Below, piece by piece: positions 8,307 to 56,555 of a stretch of 64,000 nt of DNA. The notes below the pieces were generated by a model that did no database searches, was not told the DNA's origin, and saw nothing but the letters and a program-made list of their open reading frames with translations. This DNA is from Lepraria neglecta (taxonomy: Eukaryota > Ascomycota > Lecanoromycetes > Lecanorales > Stereocaulaceae), in assembly GCA_033220425.1 (NCBI GenBank), contig CM065647.1, positions 2,976,001 through 3,040,000 on the forward strand. Direction: 5' to 3'. The translations under genes and the position numbers were made by a program. How positions within the stretch are numbered: position 1 is the stretch's first letter; the number at the start of each line of letters is the position of its first letter.

Positions 8307-11300
8307 CTACTGACAGGCTGACCAGTCAGCTCTCTCTAAGTCCTCTTTCGGCATTCGGCTGACCTCGCCTTCGCGCCATCGCACCTCCACCATTTCTTTC
8401 TCAGGGTCCCATGATAACTTCGCAAAGAAAGCCTCTTTTACCCGCTTTTTCCTTTCCCCTGCATCCCCAACCTCATCCTTGAGCATAGCCTCCACTATCC
8501 TCCAATCCCACACTCTGACTGATCGTGGATGCCAAGCAGGGATATGCCGCACGAGTGACCATATGTGCTCCCCAGTGAGATGCCTATCAGCCGGCTCGAC
8601 TAGGAAGATGATGCTGTGTTCGGGAGAGGCAGAGGCCGGGAATGGCGTCGTGGAGGGGAAATCAGAGGGTTCTATTGAGTGCTTGGCCAGAAGCTCTTTC
8701 AGCGGATGTTTGTCGTCCATGAGGCACGGACTCAAGATTAATTGGCGTTTCTTCAGATCCAGGATAGCCTGCTCCACGGCCGTACTTAGAGGCGTCGGCA
8801 TAATAGAATTCCCTTTCTGCTGCCTGCTTGGTGACGAAAGCGGTGTGGAAACTGCGTCGTAGAAGAGTGTCTGCTGGGTCGTAGCAGCAGTCGTGCTCTC
8901 AGAGGCTGTTGTTTCCCGAGAAGGATAAGAAGGCTCTAGTATCTTCCTCCGCTTGTTGCTGCGGCCGTAGAGGTACTCATCAGCGTCAACAGCGATCTTG
9001 CGTACAAGAGAAAAGTCCGTCGTTGACGGCTGCTTCGTCTGCGGGAGGCGCTTTGGGCTTGGAGATGGTAAAGAAGGGCAAGTAGAATTTGTGATCTCCC
9101 GTAGAGGCTTCCCGTAAGTGGCAGTATTGGAGCTATCTGTACCCTGGGGCTCGCGCTTTGACTGCAAAAGTGATGGTCGCGCTTTCTTTGACGTTCTGGA
9201 AGCCTCTTCCAAGTCAGCAGAATCTACGGTCCGCTTCCCCAACAAGCTCGGAGGACTTAGATGTTTCGAACTTAGGTCAGTACCTCGCGACAGCGGTGAT
9301 GATCTTGGCGGTGTTTGCAGAGCGCCATCACTGGTAATGCTTGCCACTAAGTGTTCTGACGTGGGTCGGTCTACCACCTCTCCAGTGCTTAATAGATACT
9401 CCTTGTCTTGCATTTCTCCGGTGTCCATGCGTACCAAGGGTGGGGCGACAGGAGTCCGCATTCGCCGGGATGGCTTGGCTGCAGATACTGGTGGGAGCTC
9501 TTGAATCTGGACCTCGGGTTCTTCATCCTCATCGTCAGTGTAATCCCAGGATGGTATTTGTCTGTTGGCTCTTCGATCTAGTTGGTCAAGCGTCCCAATC
9601 CACTCTGCAAGCTCTTCGGATAAGTCGCCTTTCGGGGTTGTCATGGCTTCGATGGCTATTGCTTGCAGCTCATCAAGACCCACAGCCTGCCTCCAATCCC
9701 TATCTCGATGAAGCTTCAAGACGCGTGGAAACCGAAGGGTGAAGATATCACGATTCGGCGACTTGTCAAAACCACTACCAGCCACATCGAACACGAACGG
9801 CTTTCTGAAGATCACCTTCGGCCTAGGAAGACCAACTGCGAAGTCTAGATTGTAAGTCTCGTGAGCGTCAAGAGAACCTTGCTCCATTGATCGTAGTGGG
9901 AACTGCCCGTGCTGGTTGAGGTACACTAGATCCTCTTTCTTGAGGCAGTCGCAGATCTTGTCAAATATCAAGAATCGGGGCTTCGCTCCAGATTGGAGGA
10001 CTTTTTCTTTGTTTCTCAGGCAGCCAATGTAAAAATGGGTCCACTTAAGGTCCAGATCCGGAAATCTCGAAGCCTCCCTAACATCATAGCCGGCACCAAC
10101 AACTGCGAAGTCGGCAGAGTCCCCCAGCCCTTTGATGCAATCTTTCTTCAGCTTGATCCATCGGCTGGGGTATCTGCCCTTGATTGGTCTCTCAAGGTCG
10201 AAGTAGGGCTCGTCAGAGGGTTTGAGTACCAGTCCTTCCCATCTCCGCACAAAGGCGTGAGCCAAAGCTTCCTTAAGCTGCTTTGGCCCGTCAGGTTTGG
10301 AGAACTGAACGTGCTTTTGCCAGGTTATTCCTGCTTTTCCTTTGATCGGAGTCACTAGCCTCTCTAAAAGACGCCGCCTCTCTCGATGCGGTTGATGGAG
10401 GACCGGGTCATCATCAATAATCATTACGTCGAAAAACATTATCATTAGCTGTTCCCAAGGATGTGGTCTGCAGTCCGATCAGTAATGAACCGGAGATGTT
10501 AGAATTGCGGGAACTCACTGAGAATCCAAAATCGTGCCCAAAAAGCTGCCAGACCGGGAAACATGTTTCCTAATCTTGTGAAACTCCAAAATCGCCTTCG
10601 TCTTCTCGCTCCAAACCAAAAGCTCGCCTTCCAAAATGCACTTTCCAGAAAACCCGCAGTCATCACGTCCAATCCGAAGGCCGTCCTTGATGGCTTTATG
10701 AACACCACTACGGTCAATGGTAGAATCCTTTCCGCTTTTTGAGAAGATCTGAACGCAGTCTTCTCCTCGAGACAGATCAATATGGATCTGGCAATACTCC
10801 CCATCGTGCTTTCTTTCGACGCTCATGGTCCGTCCATCGATCACACTCACTGCGTGTTTGACTCCACCTTTCGCTTTGACCCACTTCGGTGGCCCAATCT
10901 TGAAACCGATCTTCGGAGGCAGAAGATGGGCATCATTAGCGCATTGCTGGGTGAAGCCACCTCCGCCAGCTTCGATCATTTGAGAAGCTGGTAGGCCATG
11001 TAGTTCTGTAATGGCAGCCTCGAAGTCGTCGTACATCTGCATAGCGATGCGCAGGCGAGGATCAATGTGGTAATAGACCATGTTCTCTGTAAGATCCAGA
11101 CAAGAAAAATCCTTCAGTATCAGCCGTGTGAACCATTTGGCCTCCCTTGATTGCATTCTTTGATAGGCATTTCCCAGAAGCTTCAAGACCTCCTGGTCAT
11201 CTTTGACCTCGCGCTGTCTGACTTTAGGCGCGGAAAATCGGCACTGGCCAGCAACCTTAGCAAGGACTTGGTCTACATGTTCGAGTGTGACTCGATCCTT

Positions 11301-11681
11301 TGCCAATGGTGGCGGGAACTCAGCTGGTCGTAATGCACGTTCAACACAGTCGCCTAGGTTGCCTCGTCCTGGCGTTTGCCATTGGTCTAAAATCGTCTGT
11401 CTGTCTTTTCCAATGCAAAGGCATCGTTTCAGTAATTTAGTGAGCCTCTTGAGTTGAATATTATAGACTCGATTCGTCCTTTTGGCTGGGAATAGAGCCG
11501 AGAGTAAGGCCACGGCATCAACATCGGGTGAGTTGATAGAGACTCGATGTGTTGTGAACCACGACTTGAGGGTCTCGTGATACCCCAAGTGAAGTCTAGC
11601 AGGAAGCAAAGGTGGATCACGTCTACTCAAATCTTCAAGAACGGAAAGCAGATCACAAAGCTGAGTAAATAGAAGAGGCAT
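8307..11681 (-). CDS. ATP-dependent DNA ligase (ligase IV-like fungal paralogue)
   Basis: Two exons, 11681-10519 and 10467-8307, encode 1107 aa. The 51-nt intron (10518-10468, GTGAGT...GCAG) joins in phase 2, giving ...DSQPHPWEQLMIMFFD. Residues 1-270 form the DNA-binding domain. The nucleotidyltransferase core follows, with motif I at K291 (ERKHDGEY), motif III (CILEGELLVW), motif IV (EGLVLKP) and motif V (WIKLKKD), then an OB-fold. The rest is low-complexity and Ser/Pro-rich with a basic, possibly nuclear-targeting stretch (SNKRRKILEPSYPSRE), and ends in a folded-looking 110-aa segment that could be a diverged BRCT (VRVWDWRIVEAMLKDEV). Ligases of this type seal nicks by transferring AMP from a lysine adduct. 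An oddity is that motif I is KxDGEY where KxDGxR is usual. Function in repair is inferred from the family, and true Lig4 has clearer tandem BRCTs. Confidence 0.9.
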
Positions 11682-13565
11682 TGTTGCCGTAGGGAGGAAG
11701 CAAAAGCAATAGCAATAGCATTGTGTAAAGGAGAACGAAACCCTAGCTAGAATTTAATGCATAACACCGGAAGGGAATAATGATGCCTAAATGAAGTGAA
11801 GGACAATGGAAAGATGTAGCGGAGATTAAATCAAGACGCGTTGTTTGCCGCTAAATTAAGCGCGCGCAGTCACGTGCTTGTCAAAATCAATCTATATTTA
11901 GCCCCAAAAGACAACACAAATTTGATGAGAATTATATACATTGCAATGTGCAATGGACAGAACCTAGGGGGTTATTATACATAGTCAGAGCAGGAGTTTT
12001 ATCTATTTGCCAACAAGCCTGCCATGAATCTTGGCACGGACGCATTTCATCTATCACGCCCTCAGCTGTAACGCAATCTGCTTCCTCGCTAACCATTGGC
12101 TCCCATTGTTCAAGAAAGATCCCGCTTCCCCGAGACCTCTCATCTAGTCTACCCCACGGACAACGTGTGCTTGGGGTGGCTGGCCCCCAGACGGGAAGCG
12201 CATGTATCTCTGCAATGTTTCAAGTTGCTGTCAACACCTCAACCATGCTTCAGCCCAGACGGCAGCTGGATTATCATCCTCCTGAATATTGTGATCCTGA
12301 AGGTTCTGCTAACGGCAGCAACCTAGATGTAGGAAAGGTTTGCTGAGTGCCGGCATACTTGGCCTTACGCTTATGCACCTAGGTGCTGCCTTGAACTTAT
12401 GAGAGTATAGAAAGCGACGTCAGCAGACAACTTCCAGGAGTACATATCACCGGTTGAAGGGGACCTGCCCGGGGAGGATGTGTCGGTTTAGGCTGACCAG
12501 TAACGGGAAGTACTTGATCCTCCTGCATGCCACATTTCCGCTCTGCACTAGTCCGGTAATGGCAGTTCTCGCTTCCCTCTGATAAGAGCTGTGTTCCAGC
12601 TTTCCTCTCATTTGACGAGTCCGTAAGTATATCCTCGGGCATTCCGCAAACTGACGTTGTCAATCCTATTTTGGAACTCTCCAGCCCTGCTCGTCACCGT
12701 CTGTGTTCCGCGTTGCAACCCCAACGTCCTCTGGCCCCTGCCTATGGCTCTGGATTTTGTTTCACGTGCCTTATCAATGGGAGCCAGCGGCAGCAACTCA
12801 AATTTACACGGGCTGTTTGGGTGATAACCAGTCTACCAGACCTCAAGGTCTGAAACACAGCAAATGCTGCAGGAAGAGCCATCTAAACCAATGACAGGGG
12901 ATCAAAAGTCTTACTGATCTTGGGATGTGGGCGGGAACGGGTTATCAGCAATGCCATTCACACAGACGGACTATGTGCATCCCTGCATCTCCTCCATTTG
13001 TTACGTGCTAGTCCCATTGTGGCTTGTCTTTCTTGTCCCTTAGAAAATTGTGTTTCAAGTTCCTGCTAGTCTGACTATCAATCCAGAACAAGCATGAAAG
13101 CTCTTAGAAGCACCCTCTCATGGAGCCTCTAAAACCTTTCCTATCAGTACTAATCTATCATGTTTACGTGTTGCTGCGTTGAAGGCATCTGGCCCCAGGT
13201 TTGGTCGGTGGAGGTTGTTTCAGCTCCTCTGCCGATTGAAGGCTCCCTCAATTCTTTATCTGATTTTTCCTCACAGTCCGTGCCGAGGAAGAAATTAAAA
13301 CCTTAACATGATTCCAAGACATGGCAAGCACGGCTCGTTGAAACCTCTGCTCTTGGTCTTTAATGTCGCCGGGACATCACGTACTGTTTCAATCTTCACT
13401 AGATGAGTATGGATAAAACGGGCTGGATCCGTGTTCTAAGAATAAGACAAGGCTATGTCTTATATAGAATGGAATACTCCATTACATCCAAGATGATGCC
13501 TTTCTTTAAATCTCTAGTAACGTATAGGTACCTTGCAAATCACCCCGAGCAATCGCTTGTCTAGA
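11682..13565. other. Gene-poor upstream region
   Basis: Nearly 1.9 kb between the ligase start and the SGNH esterase ATG. The first 100 bases upstream of the ligase carry an (agcaat)-like purine run. No ORF here shows coding character, and I see no repeat, tRNA or other RNA gene. Promoters of both divergent genes should lie within it. Confidence 0.4.
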
Positions 13566-29778: not shown

Positions 29779-31419
29779 ATGTTGCTCGAAGAGCAGCGGT
29801 TCCTCCACGAGGACCTGGAGAGATTGGAGCAAGGGATTAGTGACCGAGTTGCAGAAGACTCAAGACACGTACGACTCAACTGTAGCTCTCTAAAGTTGTT
29901 GTGCAGCTTGCTGACCATCTAACCAGATTCGAGACCGATTAAATCGGGACCACCAAATCGCAGGCTTCCTCAACCGCATCCAAGAGCAATCCAAACGACT
30001 CGTTGACATATACAATGACACTGAAGGCTTACGAACGAAAGAAATTCAGTCTATATCCACAGGCGACCCTTTTGACGAGTTTTCCAAGCAGATGGCCGAG
30101 ATTAAAGATTTCCACAAGAGGTACCCGAACGAGCCAGTGGAGAATTTAGAGAGGGCATACAAGCGGAAGGCACCAGGGGAGGGAGAATCGGCGACGATGG
30201 AGGTGGATAACATGTTTACTGGAGAGGAAGCCTTCGGCCGGTTTCTGGATCTGACGACAATACATGAAGACTACCTGAATCTGCAGAATATTAAGAGAGT
30301 GTCCTACCTACAATACCTTACCATGTTTGACAACTTTGGACCACCACATATGACCCTGAAGCGAGCAGATAAGAGCACGGATGCATACTTCAACTACGTT
30401 GGGCGCCTGGCAGATTACTTGGAGAGCTTCATGAGGCGGACGAGGCCCCTCGAAGACCTCGACAAGCTCTTTACTTCGGTGGATCAAGACTTCGAGAAAG
30501 CATGGGAGGAGAACTCAGTCCCCGGTTGGGGTCCAGATGCGCAGCCGGTTGGCCCTGCTGCACCTAAGACGGAAGGTACTGGGGAAGGCGTTTGGTGCCC
30601 CGATTGTGAAAAGGAATTCAAGAACGACAATGTCTACAAAAGCCATCTGAGCGGCAAGAAGCATATCAAAGCCGCTGAAGCACGAAAAGCGCAGAGAGCC
30701 GCCAACGGCACACCAAATGGTGAGACCACGAATGGGCATACCAATGCGCGAGGCTCCACTCTTCAGCGACTCAAGGAACGCGCTATTGCGGAGCGCGAAT
30801 ACCGCGTCAAGCGTCTAGCCTCGATGATGGAAACCGTGCGTACTGATACAAGAGTCAACGTGGAGAGAAAACAAGGCATGACGGAACGCGAGCGCCAATT
30901 GGAACTCGATGCTATGTTCGCCGAATCCGCGGAAGCTCCTAACCGCAATGGGGATGACGAGTCAGACTCTGATGGGGACGAGAAAATCTACAACCCTTTG
31001 AAGCTTCCGCTGGCTTGGGATGGCAAGCCCATTCCTTACTGGCTCTACAAATTGCATGGTCTGGGTGTGGAGTTCCCCTGCGAGATTTGTGGAAACTTCG
31101 TGTACATGGGAAGGAGAGCGTTCGACAAGCACTTCAATGAGGCGCGACATATCTACGGCTTGAAGTGTCTAGGGATAACCAATACAACGCTGTTCCGGGA
31201 GATCACGGGGATCGAGGACGCGTTGAAATTGTGGGATAAGATAACGCGGGATAAGAAGAAGGAGAAAGCTGGAGGGGAGAATATTGTGCAGATGGAGGAT
31301 GCGGATGGGAATGTGATGCCGGAGAAGGTCTACTATGAGTGCGTTACCCCTTCTGCCTAACTCTTGCGAAGAACAGATGCTAATAAATCCACAGTCTACA
31401 GAAGCAAGGTCTTCTTTGA
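29779..31419 (+). CDS. prp9: Splicing factor 3a subunit 3 (Prp9/SF3a60)
   Basis: Exons 29779-29868, 29927-31338 and 31395-31419 encode 508 aa, close to SF3a60's usual 500. Intron phases are 0 and 2. The final exon is only 25 nt and restores the conserved end EDLQKQGLL. N-terminal helices (MLLEEQRFLHEDLERLEQGI) lead to YLQYLTMFDNFGPPHMTLKR. A first C2H2 U1-type finger follows, WCPDCEKEFKNDNVYKSHLS with GKKHIKA. Near the C-terminus is the matrin-type finger, FPCEICGNFVYMGRRAFDKH with FNEARHIYGLKCLGI. SF3a60 is part of the U2 snRNP SF3a complex needed for prespliceosome assembly in the nucleus. It is divergent from fal1. Confidence 0.95.
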
Positions 31420-31819
31420 ATGGTTGATGGACAGTGCTACGTTTAGGAAAAGGTGGCCAGATTTCACGAGGTCTTACGTTCAGGAAGTGTATATAATAAG
31501 TATGCCACCTCCATGGGAGTATCAGCTCCATCTGACAATCACTAGGCGATTCTAATTCATTTGACATCCACATCCGAAAGTTCTAATGTTGCTTGAAGCT
31601 GCATTAAACTAACTCAACTGAAAGCCCCACATTTTCGTAGCGCGATTGGACCTCAAGCTTTACCAAATATGACCCTAGCGTCAGCGAGCCGCGGATCCTG
31701 ATTTGCGGGAAAACATGGTCTATTTTGCGCTTTCTTGGGTTTGGCCATCACGCCATCAACCATATTTACATATCCATGCTTCACCTCGGCTGCTTGCATA
31801 ATCTTCAAAAAGTGCAGTC
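31420..31819. other. Intergenic region
   Basis: 400 bases between prp9 and the co-directional sulfite oxidase gene. They hold the prp9 3' flank and the sulfite oxidase promoter. Nothing further is recognised. Confidence 0.4.
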
Positions 31820-33520
31820 ATGAAGCAGAACCTTCAAAGCGTGTTTTTGAATGCAGTAAAACGAAAGCCCATTGCTGGTGTTAACAATAACCCTACATTC
31901 TTCACACGCAGTGCCATACGTTCAACAATATTCTTACTTCCTTTCTCTACCACATCTAGATCTCCCAAATTTTCTCCGCAATTGTCCAAATATCTCGCAG
32001 CCAGCATCTTTATAGGCGGTGGTCTGGCTGCTTCGATTACCTATTCTCCACTCATCCACGCCGAAGCTCCTCCTGACAGTGGCGACTCCAACACTCCTAA
32101 GATTCGACTCGCCGAAGTCCATCAACACGGCAGAGACGCCGAGACCAAATGGGTCACGAAAGGCACGCGCGTCTACGATATTACAGACTGGATCCCCGGA
32201 CACCCTGGTGGAGAAGTAATACTCCGCGCCGTCGGCGGTGCAATCGATCAGTACTGGAACATCTTCTCCATTCATAAAAAGCAGGAAGTCTATGATATCC
32301 TCGAATCGTATTACATCGGAGATGTAGATCCTCAAGACCTGGTCGACGGCCAAGTCCCCGTTGATCACGTTGAAGATCCGTTCAAGAATGATCCGAAGAG
32401 GGATGAGAAATTGATGGTTCTAACTACGCGACCTTGCAATGCTGAGAGTCCGGAGGAAGAATTGGGGAGTTGGTGCACCCCTAATGAGACGTTTTATGTA
32501 AGAAATCATATGTGGGTACCTGAGGCCAGTGTAGGGAATCATAAGCTTGTGATAGAGCTTCCTGATGGCGAGGAGAAAGAGTACACTTTGGAGGATCTGA
32601 AAGCGAATTTTCAGGAAGTGAAGATAACAGCCACGTTGCAATGTTCTGGGAATAGACGCAAACACATGACGCAAGAAGCCCGCTCAGCCAACGGCCTGCA
32701 ATGGGGCGTCGGTGCAATCTCGAATGCCGAGTGGAAAGGAGTCCGTCTCCGAGACCTCCTGGCAGATGCTGGACTAAATTTGAACGATCTGCCGGAAGAC
32801 GCCAAACACGCCCAGTTCATAGGAGCAGAAGCCTACGGCGCCTCGATCCCCATCGAGAAAGCGGTCGACAAACGCGGCGATGTGCTGCTCGCGTACGAAA
32901 TGAACGGCCAACCCCTCCCACCTGATCACGGCTACCCGATGCGAGTCCTCGTTCCAGGTACTGTAGCTGCGAGAAGTGTCAAGTGGGTTAAAAGAATTGT
33001 GGTGAGCGAGGAGGAAAGCACGAGTCAATGGCAAAGACGCGATTATAAGTGTTTTGGACCGAACGTAGGCGCGCCCCAGGCGAAATGGGATGAAGCGCCT
33101 GCTATTCAGGAGATGCCGGTTCAGAGCGCCATTACCTCTCTCCGTAACATATCATGCCACAGCGCCACGGACCGAAAACTCCTCCAAGTCTACGGCCTCG
33201 AAGAGGACTCTGTAGCAGTCGAAGGCTACGCCTGGTCTGGCGGCGGACGTAAAATCGTGCGCGTTGACATAAGCGCAGACGATGGAAAGAACTGGCATCA
33301 GGCCGAATTACTGCTGGATGAGAGTCTGGGAAGCAAAGCGTGGGCGTGGCAGCGGTGGCGTTGGCTCATTCCAAGATGGCAGGCTGGACGGTGTTTTGTT
33401 GTGAAGGCTGTTGATGAGGCGAATAATGTGCAGCCGGCGGAGTATGAACCGCATTGGAATTTTAGAGGGCATCTGACGAATTCGTGGCATAGAGTGGGAC
33501 GTCGGCATATGGGGACGTAG
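31820..33520 (+). CDS. Sulfite oxidase (cytochrome b5 + molybdopterin)
   Basis: A single-exon gene of 566 aa. The Arg-rich start (MKQNLQSVFLNAVKRKP...) plus a hydrophobic stretch (YLAASIFIGGGLAASITYSP) forms a bipartite mitochondrial presequence suited to the intermembrane space. Residues about 95-175 are a cytochrome b5 domain with both haem-ligand histidines (GHPGGEVILRAVGG and FSIHKKQEVY). The oxidoreductase molybdopterin domain follows (TRPCNAESPEEELG, FYVRNHMWVPEASVG) with the Mo-ligand Cys275 in ITATLQCSGNRR. The dimerisation domain closes the protein (VEGYAWSGGGRKIVRVDISA). This arrangement is that of animal-type sulfite oxidase, oxidising sulfite to sulfate with electrons passed to cytochrome c. 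It is full length with no key residue missing. Confidence 0.95.
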   Translation: MKQNLQSVFLNAVKRKPIAGVNNNPTFFTRSAIRSTIFLLPFSTTSRSPKFSPQLSKYLAASIFIGGGLAASITYSPLIHAEAPPDSGDSNTPKIRLAEVHQHGRDAETKWVTKGTRVYDITDWIPGHPGGEVILRAVGGAIDQYWNIFSIHKKQEVYDILESYYIGDVDPQDLVDGQVPVDHVEDPFKNDPKRDEKLMVLTTRPCNAESPEEELGSWCTPNETFYVRNHMWVPEASVGNHKLVIELPDGEEKEYTLEDLKANFQEVKITATLQCSGNRRKHMTQEARSANGLQWGVGAISNAEWKGVRLRDLLADAGLNLNDLPEDAKHAQFIGAEAYGASIPIEKAVDKRGDVLLAYEMNGQPLPPDHGYPMRVLVPGTVAARSVKWVKRIVVSEEESTSQWQRRDYKCFGPNVGAPQAKWDEAPAIQEMPVQSAITSLRNISCHSATDRKLLQVYGLEEDSVAVEGYAWSGGGRKIVRVDISADDGKNWHQAELLLDESLGSKAWAWQRWRWLIPRWQAGRCFVVKAVDEANNVQPAEYEPHWNFRGHLTNSWHRVGRRHMGT

Positions 33521-43817: not shown

Positions 43818-46350
43818 CTAGCCCTCGAACTCAGTCACAAACTCCTCAAAAAAAATTTTATATATATACATAATAGCTACCGGTATACTCCAAAACAAGA
43901 TGTCACTCCCTATCTTACTCGCTATCCCCTTAAATGCGACAAACGAAGCCGACGCGCTCGCGTTCGTAGAAGACACCGTAATGGTACTATTACCAATCGC
44001 CAGAGTTCCCGAGGCCAGCAAGCTAACGGGTGTTCCAGCAATCGTAACGCCAGGCCCACAGGGTTTGATCGTTGTCCCGTCCACAGAAATCGCGCTTGGG
44101 TTGGCCGTGAATATCTTGTTGCCTATGGTGTAGACCGAAGCTGGGCCTTGCACAGGAGATGGTGTGGGTGTGGTGGGGATGGAAATTGCAATGGTACTGT
44201 CTCCGGTGATTAGAGTGCCAGATACTGGCATACTAACAATCGTTCCAGCAATCGTGACACCAAGCCCACCAGACGTGATCGTCGTTCCGTCTTTGGAAAT
44301 TGCGCTTGAGTTTGCTGTGAATATCTGGTCGCCTATGGTATAGATTTGCGGTGGTGGCGTAGGAGGACGTGGAACAGCTATGGTACTGGAGCCGATGATT
44401 AGTGTGCCTGATGCAGCGAGCCTGATGGGTGTGCCTGCTACAGTTATTCCGGGTCCGCCGGGAGTGAGGGTGGTGCCCGCGATGGGAATGGATGTGGGGT
44501 TGGCAGTGAAGATTTGGCCGCCTACGGCGTATATCTGAGGCGAACCAGCGGCTGGCGTTGGAGAGCCGGTGATTATGATGACAGGTCCTTCGGAAATTAG
44601 TGTTTGGCCGTGGATTACGTATGCTGATGCGCTGTTTGGAGTGAATGTTTCAAACCAATGATCAAAAGAGGCGGTGACGGGCCTGCCGGCAACAGGTTGA
44701 TGATACTACAGCCGACAGCGATTTGGCTTGCACTAGGGGCTAAGCGAATGGGAGTGCTGGATACTGTGATTGCAGGCCGCCTATGATGGACGGAGATGCT
44801 TGATTGCCAATAGTTATAACAGGGGTTGCTAGGGTGTTCGGTTGTAATGACGAGGTGACACCATTAATGATGGCGATCCGGCCATTTGGAGCGATGGAGA
44901 CTGTGAAGACTGGTTGAGGCGGAGCTAGACCAGTGACGTGATCTTGCGCATTGGCGACTAGGGTAGCCGTCGGGCCAGGCGTAAAGATTATGGCTCCTAC
45001 ACCTAAGTGTTGCCCTGAGTTTGTTCCTGGGTGGGAATCCTCCTGATTTGCTTGACCATTTTGTGGTCGATCGTTTGATTGTGGAGGAGAATTTGTGTTG
45101 CCTGTACTACTAACTGCGGCTTCCTCTTGGGCCTGATATGGATTGTTGATGGACAGGCCGTTGCTGGTGGGGTTTTTGTTTGGGGGGTCATTCTGGGGCG
45201 TACTGTCGCTAGGTGGATCAGCACCGTGCGATTCGCCGCTGGCCGGCCGATTTTTAGAGGGATCACTGCTGAGCGGCGGGCCCTGGGGGCCAGGTACTCC
45301 TGTCTCCTTGGGCTCGGAATTTGGGCCAGGGTCGGCTAGAGGAGGCATCTGAGGTGCCGGCTGTGGTGCATTATTTGTGGGACTTGTGGGATTCGGTGTT
45401 GGCGTTGCGGGAGCGTTTGCTGGAGCTATCTGAGCCGCAGGAGCCGGTACTGGTGGTTTGGCTGGAAATGGCCCTTCTGAGGCCATGGCCGTTGCTTTGT
45501 TTAGCATCCGAGGAGCGTCGAAAGCTCCAATCTGGATTGGTGTGCAAGTTCTCCATGAGGGGTCCAAGACGGTGCCCTCGGTGAGACCAGCAGGCCAAAC
45601 GAGTTGTGTGTATGGCGACCAGAGAAGCGTATGAATGGGACATGTGGCATAATCATACATTGTTATCCTGTACTGTAGCTCAGTGTAGTTTATTGCTCTA
45701 GTCACGTCGGGGATAGCCGTGTTGCAAACAACGCGGGTAGACAGGGCGTCTGGCTCGTAGGCAACCGTAATGTTGAAACTGACGGCAAAGGGAGACTCGC
45801 ATCATATGCACTGGTAGTAAGGCTCGTACGAGGTTCCCGTATAAGCCGTGTTCGAGCAAAAGCTCCTATTGACTAGCTCTTGGTAGATGACGTAGATGTG
45901 CTAATGGCGAGATGAGCTGTTTTTCGTTGAGACGAAGGGGTACACTCACAACGTAAAGCCATCGGATACCGTGACGTAGGTGCTTGATGCTGCTGCGGCT
46001 GATTTATTTTGTGTGGATCCCGTGCTGTTATCGACGGGCCAATATTGTAGAAATGCGTATCCCGTGATCTGGCACGAGTCGTCACAATCTACTGGAGGAG
46101 CAGGAAGCGAATGGTAGGCTGTTGGTCCGGCTTGGACGGTCCCGTTGACCATGACGCTCCTATTAATTTGAGCTTGGAATGGAGTCGCCGATTGAAGCCT
46201 GGGCACTGCAATGTTGCGTAAGCGTTGCCAATGCTTTCGGCGTGATTATACAGTAGTCAATGTATCAAATCAAGACTGGATGCTTACTCAAATCAAATTT
46301 CTGTCTTCTCTCTTGATGGTGAGGAGTGGGCAACGCGGCAATGCAGCCAT
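43818..46350 (-). pseudogene. Broken cell-surface protein gene with Thr/Pro linker and repeats
   Basis: On the minus strand a folded N-terminal part (QITGYAFLQYWPVDNST; STYVTVSDGFTL) splices toward HIYVIYQELVNRSFCSNTAY. After an in-frame stop it continues as RAINYTELQYRITMYDYATC and VDPSWRTC-like LDPSWRTCTPIQIGAFDAPR. A long Pro/Asn/Ser linker follows (45000-45500). Tandem repeats of a GTxVSL-x-SGTLxIGxSTI type motif come next (43945-44540), and the C-terminus ends in a hydrophobic helix (SDILFWSIPVAIMYIYK). This is the layout of fungal wall-anchored or membrane-anchored surface proteins. The frame changes again near 44740. I could not place the start codon or signal peptide with confidence; an upstream GLSSVLAQITS reading near 46400 may be part of it. 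Confidence 0.6.
43945..44540 (-). repeat. Three diverged ~190-210 bp coding repeats
   Basis: Three related blocks, with corresponding points near 44040, 44250 and 44440, each encode a beta-rich unit of the kind IGNKIFTANPSAISVDGTTI and PGVTIAGTPVSLLASGTL. They belong to the surface-protein relic. Divergence between units is high, so the duplication is old. Confidence 0.65.
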
Positions 46351-52993: not shown

Positions 52994-55189
52994 ATGCTCT
53001 CTTCAACTCTCATTACCCTCGCGGCTTCTCTTTCAGTTGCTTCTGCCCAAGTCTACAAGGGCTTCAACTATGGTGCTACTAATACAGATAATTCCCCAAT
53101 CACCGAGTCCCAGTACCAGAATGATTTCTCCACTGCCCAGAAACTCGTTGGTGCCAGTGGCTTCACCAGTGGTCGTCTCTACACCTCTATCCAAGCCGGC
53201 ACCATAGACACCTATACAGAGGCTTTCCAGGCAGTACGTTCTCTCCCGTCAAACACCCCTTCAACCCCAACAGAACAATTGCTGACTGGCGATTCCCTCA
53301 GGCAATCAATACCAAGACATCCCTTCTTCTAGGTCTTTGGGGGTCAGGCGGCCAAGCAGGCCTCAGCAATGAGATCACAGCTCTTCAGGCAGCCATCAAG
53401 AACTTCGGCAGCTCCCTCACAGACCTCATCGTCGGTATCTCAGTCGGAAGCGAGGATCTCTACCGTATCTCTCCCACCGGTATTGAGAACATGTCAGGGA
53501 TTGGAGCAGGCCCAGATGTCATCAGCAACTACATTGGTCAGGTCAAATCAGCCATTGCCGGCACTGCCGCAAATGGAAAGCCAGTGGGACACGTCGATAC
53601 ATGGACTGCCTGGATCAACGGCTCCAATGATGCTGTCATCGCTGCTGCCGACTTCATTGGCATGGATGCTTATCCCTACTTCCAAAACACCATGACCAAT
53701 CCAATTGCGGACGGATATTCACTGTTCTTCGATGCATACGATGCAACTGTCAGCGTTGCTGGTGGCAAGCCCGTCTGGGTCACAGAAACCGGTACGTTAT
53801 CCTTTCTGAGCTATTGTTTCCTCATTCATGCCCCATTCCGAGCCGGATAAGATTTCCGGCTCTTGAGACACGTCTTACGACTCAAGAATCATGTTAGAAA
53901 GGAAATGCTGACTCCGAAATCATATAGGCTGGCCTATTAGCGGGGCCACCGAAAATCAGGCTGTTCCAAGCTTGCAAAATGCAAAGACGTACTGGGATCA
54001 AGTGGGCTGCGGTCGACTTTTTGGACAAGTCAACACCTGGTGGTACACTCTTCAAGATGCCTTCCCAACCACCCCTAGCCCAAGCTTCGGTGTTGTCGGC
54101 ACTACTTTGAGCGACACGCCTCTCTACGACCTCAGCTGCTCCGGCGTTTCCACCTCTGCCTCTGACATCCCATCTGCTAGCGTTACTGCAGCTATTGAAT
54201 CTGCTACGGCTGCCTCGGCTCAAGCTGGCAATGTTGGCACCGGCCAAAAAATCGGGTCTGGCAGCGAAGCACAGGGCCAAAATGCAGGCTCTGCGTCATC
54301 CCCCGCTGGAACATCGCCTGCTGCTCAACAACAGACTTCCGCGACCGAAACTCAGGCTCCCGCTCAAGCACTAGAGTCGACTATATTCAGCACCAAAGGA
54401 GTGACCATCACAAGCTGCCCAGGTGGCTGCCCCAAGGAAAGCCAACTGCAGACTGAAGCCCCAACTGTTCCCCCTGCTACGGCTCCAACTACACTCATCA
54501 CCAAGACTAGTGTCCTTCCTTCTGCCTCGGCTGCCTCGGCCTCTAGCTGCCTAGCGTACGTACATCTGAGAGTCTTCCTCCCCCTATTCGGACTATTGTC
54601 TGGGTCCTTGTTCATGTTATTGGGGCTATGAATCAGACTGTCCTTCCTAGACATGCCTGAGAATGCTGTCCTTTGCCACAAGCACTGATACTGACTCCGA
54701 AACCTGCGCAGAAGCCTTTCCGGCACATACGAGTACCCACACTTGATCGTTCCGGTCGACAAGACCCAGCCAGACAAGGCTGGTGGGACTAGCTACAACG
54801 GCACTATTTCCTCAACCATTTCATCAATCTTCAACTTCGACATCCCCCAAACCGACTCCGGCAAGACGTGCACACTCGTCTTCCTCCTTCCTCAACAAGA
54901 CCAGTTGACTACATCTGTTTTCAGCCTAAGCGGCTCTGGAGGGTTTGATGTGGCTCAGCTGTCAAGCCCAGTGACCGAGCAGACGAGCTACAACACCGTC
55001 TCATCCGTCTCCAGCGATTTGGGTGGACCAGAGAGCGTCACTCCAGGAAATGAGTATGTTATTGCTAGTGGCTCGTGTGCCGCTAGTCAGAGGATTTCGT
55101 ACGAGGTCACTGCCACAGGCAGCTTAGATCTCAACTACTTCCAGGACTTCAACCCATCACCTATTGGGTTCTACGTTACTGTCTGCTAG
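52994..55189 (+). CDS. GH17 beta-1,3-glucanase fused to But2-type domain
   Basis: Exons 52994-53233, 53302-53791, 53928-54555 and 54712-55189 encode 611 aa. Phases are 0, 1 and 2, and all close. A signal peptide ([20 protein letters not shown]) precedes the GH17 barrel. [12 protein letters not shown] holds the acid/base Glu and VWVTETGWP the nucleophile Glu. A Ser/Thr/Gln linker follows. The final exon adds a But2 C-terminal-like beta domain ([20 protein letters not shown] to [12 protein letters not shown]). If the last intron (54556-54711, GTACGT...CGCAG) is kept, translation ends at 54631 after [18 protein letters not shown], a GPI-anchor-like tail, giving a 477-aa glucanase. Members remodel wall beta-1,3-glucan at the cell surface. 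Which form is made is not decidable here. A separate But2 gene is less likely, as that exon has no signal peptide or ATG at its start. Confidence 0.85.
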
Positions 55190-55628
55190 AGCAGTTAATG
55201 GCTCATGAATGGGTTGGATGGATGGCATAAAAGCAAAGCATTGACAAGGCAAAGGGAAAAGCTTTATCATTCTTGTATACATAATCATTAATGTAATACT
55301 CTTCCCTAAAAAATCTCCATGAGCCCGAACAAGTGGGATAGTAGAACCTGAATCTGAAAGCTTTGCATGCACAAGATTTGGCGATTTTATGTCCGCCTAC
55401 TACTAGTAACCTCGATCCCGTTTTAACTCGTAGGGCTGACTAATCATCTTGAGATCTCGACTTCAAAGCACTCAGCTGCCTATCCCACCCAACACTTTAC
55501 AGTGTCGTCTCCTCTCCTTTTGCAGCGAATCCAGCCATCTAAGCCACCTTTTCACGACTCAAACCCTCCCACACAGTATCCATCTTTTTTTTCCAACTCA
55601 CCTCAACTTCACTCTCTCTACCGCAGCC
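55190..55628. other. Intergenic region and yju2 leader
   Basis: 439 bases between co-directional genes. An open frame runs upstream of the yju2 ATG from 55449, but it has no ATG and is Ser/Pro/His-rich, as expected of a CT-rich 5' leader. Confidence 0.45.
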
Positions 55629-56555
55629 ATGTCCGAGCGCAAAGTCCTAACAAAATACTACCCCCCGGACTTCGACCCCAGTAAAATCGCCCGCACGCGC
55701 AACACCGGTCCCAAAACCGTCGGCCCCAAAACGCAAACAGTCCGTCTCATGGCCCCCTTCAGCATGAAATGTACCTCCTGCGGCGAATACATCTACAAAG
55801 GGCGGAAATTCAACGCTCGAAAGGAAACCACCGACGAAAAATACCTCTCGATCCCCATCTATAGGTTTTATATCCGCTGTACGAGATGTAGTGCAGAGAT
55901 TACGTTTAAGACTGATCCGAAGGGAATGGATTATACGTGTGAGAAGGGGGCGAAGCGGAATTTTGAGGTTTGGAGGGGGAAGGAGGGGGAGGAGGGGAAT
56001 AAGTTGGAGACGGAGGAGGAGATGTTGGATCGGATTGAGGCGGAGGAGGCGGAGAGGGGGGGGGTCATGGCTGAGTTGGAGGAGAAGGTCCATGATGCTA
56101 AGCAGGAGATGGCTATTGCGGATGCACTTGACGAAATACGTACACGCAATGCTAGGATATCTCGCGCTGAGGGGAGAGAGGCGGATGGGGATGGGGGGGC
56201 GTTGGAGGCGGCGGACAGGGTGAGGAGGGAGTTGGAAGTAGAGAGGTTGAGGATTGAGAGGGAGGATGAGGAGGCTGCTAGGAGGGCTTTTGGGAAGGGG
56301 ATTGAGATCGAGGGGGAGGAAGAGGCGCCGGTTGATGGAGCTTTGATGGGATTTGATACCGGGATTGGCGAGCAAGGGAATGTTCAATGGGATGGCGGAG
56401 CTGTCATGTCTGCACCTGCTTCTGCGAGAGGGGAGGTAAAAGCGAAGGGGACTACGGTGGGGGATATGCCACCGCCTGAGTTTAAGAGAGTGGTCAAAAA
56501 GAAAAAGGACTTCTCGGCTGCGTTGGGGATCAAAAAGAAGTCCGCGCTGGTCTAA
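55629..56555 (+). CDS. yju2: Splicing factor Yju2/Cwc16 (CCDC94)
   Basis: A single-exon gene of 308 aa. The ATG at 55629 gives [20 protein letters not shown], the invariant Yju2 start. Two CxxC pairs form the zinc site: [20 protein letters not shown] and [20 protein letters not shown], followed by [17 protein letters not shown]. The remainder is charged coiled-coil ([20 protein letters not shown] to [20 protein letters not shown]) and a basic end ([20 protein letters not shown]). Yju2 is a step-one factor of the Prp19/NTC-associated spliceosome, promoting branching in the nucleus. Codons shift from C-ending in the first third to G-rich (gag/gcg) later. That shift leaves a long spurious open frame on the other strand. 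Confidence 0.95.

Follow-up and report, generated by a model that had tools for sequence, protein, structure and literature searches.

A GH17-But2 gene of Lepraria neglecta and a putative intron-retention switch between secreted and GPI-anchored forms

Group II of the fungal GH17 proteins includes Bgt2p of A. fumigatus and EglC of A. nidulans, both described as GPI-anchored (PMC5872321). Bgt2p is a protein of 446 aa with the omega site at residue 423, and it is the only one of five A. fumigatus GH17 proteins described there as identified by predictors as GPI-anchored (PMC5872321). Bgt2-type GH17 proteins also appear in a list of the GPI-anchored proteins that were identified from extracts of S. 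boydii (PMC4454578). The eglC-like protein G7048 of Penicillium sumatraense (497 aa) is described with a Gly/Ser-rich C-terminal region and a predicted GPI anchor, is 68.4% identical to Bgt2p in the catalytic domain, and has 1,3-beta-transglucanase activity by which branched glucans are made (PMC9745967).

In animals, alternative splicing can determine whether a GPI-anchored or a different form is made, as described for ceruloplasmin (PMC5259844) and acetylcholinesterase (PMC12154458). In fungi, intron retention was reported as the commonest splicing variation in one species, with 3,210 events (PMC10869595), and again in a second study (PMC5579035), and translation of a retained intron was proposed for Candida TFB3 (PMC3338533). 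Proteins with a But2 domain have been reported among the secreted proteins of Cenococcum and Verticillium; in the literature consulted, no description of the role of this domain in secreted proteins was found.

A window of 64 kb (the whole stretch of DNA analysed) contains a GH17 gene for which an earlier note had proposed that the last intron switches the product between a GPI-anchored and a But2-fused form. The corrected gene model has four exons, and its features are as follows.

52994-55189, + strand: whole gene, four exons (corrected gene model)
52994-53233, + strand: exon 1, with start codon, signal-peptide-like N-terminus and beginning of GH17 (gene model)
52994-53047, + strand: signal-peptide-like N-terminus of 18 residues, of typical look (judged by eye)
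53234-53301, + strand: intron 1, 68 nt, GTACGT...CCTCAG (gene model, splice-site inspection)
53302-53791, + strand: exon 2, bulk of the GH17 catalytic domain (gene model, Pfam, PDB match)
53792-53927, + strand: intron 2, 136 nt, GTACGT...ATATAG (gene model, splice-site inspection)
53928-54555, + strand: exon 3, last part of GH17, up to residue 314, followed by a linker rich in Ser, Ala and Thr (gene model, PDB match, GPI-like rule)
54556-54711, + strand: intron 3, 156 nt, GTACGT...GCGCAG, good donor, branch and acceptor (gene model, splice-site inspection)
54556-54631, + strand: in-frame read-through tail of 25 residues, GPI-signal-like (translation, GPI-like rules)
54712-55189, + strand: exon 4, But2 domain through the stop codon, Pfam match at about 54731-55156 (gene model, Pfam)

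Removal of intron 3 gives a protein of 611 aa with But2 in frame, as had been claimed. Pfam assigned the GH17 family (PF00332, Glyco_hydro_17) at 36.9 bits (E=4.2e-09, cut-off 28.2) and But2 (PF09792) at 180.5 bits (E=2.8e-53, cut-off 24.2), the latter over profile positions 1-141 of 141, and no further Pfam family was matched at E<=1 in a search whose filters drop most weak matches. The full-length match at 180 bits suggests that the But2 domain is probably under selection. The But2 open frame (54695-55189) has 164 aa from stop to stop and zero Met; its translation from an ATG thus requires splicing to an exon further upstream, and a separate gene made of the But2 exon was ruled out on this ground. 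The spliced form ends in FYVTVC, where a GPI-type signal is absent by eye. The AlphaFold model of exon 4 by itself was poor and consisted mostly of strands (mean pLDDT 52.2), and a PDB search with this poor model returned no match at E<=0.001. By domain assignment and translation, the view that the spliced form is a secreted protein built of a putative signal peptide, a GH17 domain of the Bgt2/EglC kind, a Ser-rich linker and But2, without anchor, is well supported. As in the secreted But2 proteins described from other fungi, the domain is full-length and C-terminal and the protein has a signal-peptide-like start. Two But2 proteins reported from C. geophilum are small (they apparently have 186 and 204 aa), whereas the domain found here forms part of a fusion with an enzyme. 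In the open-access literature, as far as the accessible text goes, But2 and GH17 were mentioned together only in separate contexts of one paper.

The best match to a solved structure is G7048 (8akp, E=2.9e-91, residues 20-314), to which the catalytic domain is 55% identical. The glutamates of the GSED and TETGWP motifs are invariant with G7048, and from a reading of the motifs they would form the catalytic pair. The GH17 assignment of the earlier note stands on PF00332 and 8akp, while its name "glucanase" is doubtful, given that G7048 is described as a 1,3-beta-transglucanase with branching activity. Its statement that GPI anchoring is known for fungal GH17 proteins holds for Bgt2 and EglC, the near relatives of G7048, as they are described, whereas four of the five A. 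fumigatus GH17 proteins are described without GPI. Relatives were also sought in prokaryote contigs, where the But2 exon gave 76 pattern matches and the GH17/G7048 alignment 50, and in viral contigs, where the whole protein gave 0 and the alignment 75; none of these matches was confirmed, an outcome to be expected for a gene of a fungus in collections of bacteria, archaea and viruses, and the searches have no bearing on conservation in fungi.

When intron 3 is left unspliced, the reading frame adds 25 residues to exon 3, which itself ends with SASSCL and two bases of the junction codon, and reaches the stop TGA at 54629-54631, 80 nt before the end of the intron. The resulting protein has 477 aa, and its last 36 residues have the layout of a GPI signal: small residues from the last part of exon 3 (SASAASASS), a short spacer containing a single His and a single Arg, and a hydrophobic end, the last 19 residues being uncharged and mostly hydrophobic. 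Translation thus bears out the hydrophobic tail and the stop that had been read from the sequence. The GPI-like rules used here were home-made, with no published predictor behind them; by the simple rule six positions (residues 443-448) qualify as omega sites, with spacers of 8 to 13 residues. By the same home-made rule, the retained form has a GPI-type C-terminus with omega site, spacer and hydrophobic end.

The most likely reading, to which we give a probability of roughly 0.4, is that this one gene provides two C-termini through splicing or retention of intron 3. When the intron is spliced, the 611-aa GH17-But2 protein would be secreted without an anchor. When it is retained, translation would presumably continue 25 residues into the intron and stop there, and the But2 exon would become 3' UTR. 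The omega site would be provided by the Ser/Ala-rich end of exon 3, for example SAS at residues 447-449, followed by the spacer SCLAYVHLR, which straddles the exon-intron border, and by the 19-residue hydrophobic end. The transamidase would then cleave after the omega residue and add the GPI anchor there, so that the enzyme, like its relatives, would stay at the membrane or wall. For this the retained mRNA would have to be made, exported, spared from decay and translated, and the tail would have to direct anchoring.

The order and spacing of the tail, with small residues, a spacer of 8-13 residues and an uncharged hydrophobic end, are correct, which is a point in favour of the switch. The comparison with group II (Bgt2p, EglC, G7048) points in the same direction. 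The catalytic domain and Ser-rich linker are shared, and so, in the retained form, are the GPI-like end and the approximate length, whereas the spliced form ends in But2 instead of a GPI signal. At 477 aa, the retained form resembles Bgt2p and G7048 in both size and layout, indicating that it follows the usual build of the group and that the But2-ended form is the departure. That the tail sits exactly where group II proteins have one is the strongest support for the switch. The same resemblance, as far as the relatives are described, could be taken to mean that the main form is the GPI-anchored one, with the gene ending at 54631 and the But2 exon joined only rarely. This is very improbable, because But2 is matched in full length at 180 bits, is probably selected and has no start of its own, and because the splice signals of intron 3 match those of introns 1 and 2.

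All three introns have the donor GTACGT and a branch-like site of the form CTRAY. The distance from this site to the acceptor is 16 nt in introns 1 and 2; intron 3 has two such sites, CTGAT and CTGAC, whose A is found 23 and 17 nt, respectively, ahead of the 3' splice site. All the signals claimed for intron 3, a good donor, branch and acceptor (GCGCAG), were found, with the same donor as in the other two introns. Given these good-looking signals, the gene probably makes mainly the spliced form, and the anchored form would be minor or conditional; strong-looking signals also speak against much retention. In addition, the 3' UTR of the retained form would measure at least 558 nt. A transcript with such a 3' UTR may undergo nonsense-mediated decay. 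No unusual RNA structure was found over intron 3 (z=+1.18; 175 of 200 shuffled sequences folded equally well or better), and an RNA structure hiding the splice sites was set aside as unsupported. The 3' end of intron 3 also contains a tandem acceptor, CAGAAG (54706-54717); use of its second AG would shorten the protein by a single residue (SLSG to LSG) without a change of frame.

The good splice signals also favour another explanation, in which intron 3 is always removed, only the secreted GH17-But2 protein is made, and the hydrophobic reading is accidental. We regard this as a serious possibility, somewhat short of probable, and the frequency of comparable tails bears on it directly. Intron 3 was shuffled 20000 times with dinucleotide composition preserved and six end bases kept on each side. 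The loose GPI-like rule was passed by 711 of the 20000 shuffles, and 20 were as strong as the real tail. When strength was instead taken as the hydropathy of the last 15 residues, again 20/20000 shuffles were as strong, as were 17 of 19317 read-throughs from every GT by phase on both strands of the window. These 17 are not independent and correspond to 5 of 2057 distinct tail ends (reached within 15-40 residues); the tail of intron 3 is one of these 5 and by itself supplies 5 of the 17 read-throughs. Among stop-ended frames in six-frame translation (at least 25 open codons), 18/1623 passed and 3/1623 were as strong, the intron 3 tail included. Of 259 read-throughs from consensus donors, 2 passed, one being the intron 3 tail and the other a weaker one of eight residues.

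The per-site rate of equally strong tails is thus about 1 to 2.5 in 1000, which counts against an accident, as does the position of the tail: it directly follows a suitable omega region, and the gene has close relatives whose products are described as GPI-anchored. Against this stand the 711 shuffles passing the loose rule and the further equally strong cases in the window, four among the read-through ends and two among the six-frame ends, meaning that such tails are not very rare among many introns. The site was also picked from the whole window, so the chance over all introns lies above the per-site rate and is not negligible; with tens of introns in 64 kb, a number estimated and not counted, the chance of one such tail somewhere in the window is estimated at a few per cent or more. 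By the GPI-like rule, two stop-ended frames outscore the tail, one at 45356-45430 (+) and one ending at 13040 (+). The former is Gly/Ala-rich, lies opposite a 353-aa frame of the minus strand and probably represents coding sequence read in antisense.

Codon choice was scored with a training set of 11 long open frames of the window, which was uncurated. Given the amino acids, the 24 full codons of the tail scored -0.024, compared to 0.115 for exons 1-3 and 0.117 for exon 4, and a score as low was found in 8 of 196 overlapping 24-codon coding pieces. On a measure that includes composition the tail scored -0.165, lower than any of the 196 coding pieces, a measure on which a hydrophobic tail would deviate in any case. 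On this measure it was also lower than each of the nine frames taken from introns 1 and 2 and from the remainder of intron 3 (-0.078 to 0.198), while on codon choice it lay above four and below five of these nine. The codons of the tail look intron-like and unlike those of the exons, which is in accordance with an accidental reading.

Intron-like codons would also be expected from a third explanation, in which a GPI-anchored ancestor of the Bgt2/EglC kind ended at 54631, a But2 exon was gained downstream, and a new intron engulfed the old tail together with the former 3' end, which are now unused and decaying. The described architecture of the relatives fits this history, as do the combination of intact size and hydrophobicity with a non-exon-like codon choice and the shortness of the intron beyond the old stop (80 nt). 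Stops and charged residues should, on the other hand, build up in an unused tail that is not of recent origin; we consider this history unlikely, though a serious alternative. The intron-like codons fit an accidental or a relic tail better than the switch. The idea of a splice switch is upheld in part: both ends are encoded and the GH17 domain is close to G7048, whose relatives Bgt2 and EglC are described as GPI-anchored, while the codon choice of the tail is not that of an exon. If the tail is a relic, the locus would show a GPI protein gaining a C-terminal domain with its old end turned into an intron.

Under the switch reading, the gene would resemble those of ceruloplasmin and acetylcholinesterase in providing a GPI-anchored and another form; as far as those reports were accessible, the two forms are documented there, whereas here they would arise, putatively, by plain intron retention. 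In Candida TFB3, as described, the intron length is likewise a multiple of three and the retained frame is proposed to be used. The TFB3 introns contain no stop and insert residues, whereas here the intron frame terminates the protein and would alter its location. A fungal gene switching GPI anchoring by splicing was not found among the titles and abstract beginnings of the open-access papers retrieved. GPI switching by splicing is known in animals, and plain intron retention in a fungus would be a new form of it. We suggest, rather tentatively, that a transglucanase is anchored, or released with But2, by intron retention, and that splicing efficiency may set the place of glucan branching. If so, RNA splicing and not gene duplication would set the location of a wall enzyme, glucan remodelling could be shifted quickly among membrane, wall and outside in fungi, and a function would be placed near the But2 domain. 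The anchored form would probably be missed by gene finders, because the intron is spliced in their models.

Other genes of the window were also identified. The next downstream frame on the same strand (55440-56552, +) encodes a Saf4/Yju2 splicing factor (PF04502, E=5e-67), and a second splicing gene, SF3a60/Prp9, is located at 29915-31357; the presence of two splicing genes in the window of the GH17-But2 gene is probably a coincidence. Two adjacent frames at 8310-11753 (-) jointly encode the N-terminal and central domains of an ATP-dependent DNA ligase; the split falls inside the central domain and is probably due to an intron. The frame at 31802-33517 (+) encodes a cytochrome b5 domain fused to molybdopterin oxidoreductase and dimerisation domains, a combination which we take to be that of the kin of sulfite oxidase or nitrate reductase.
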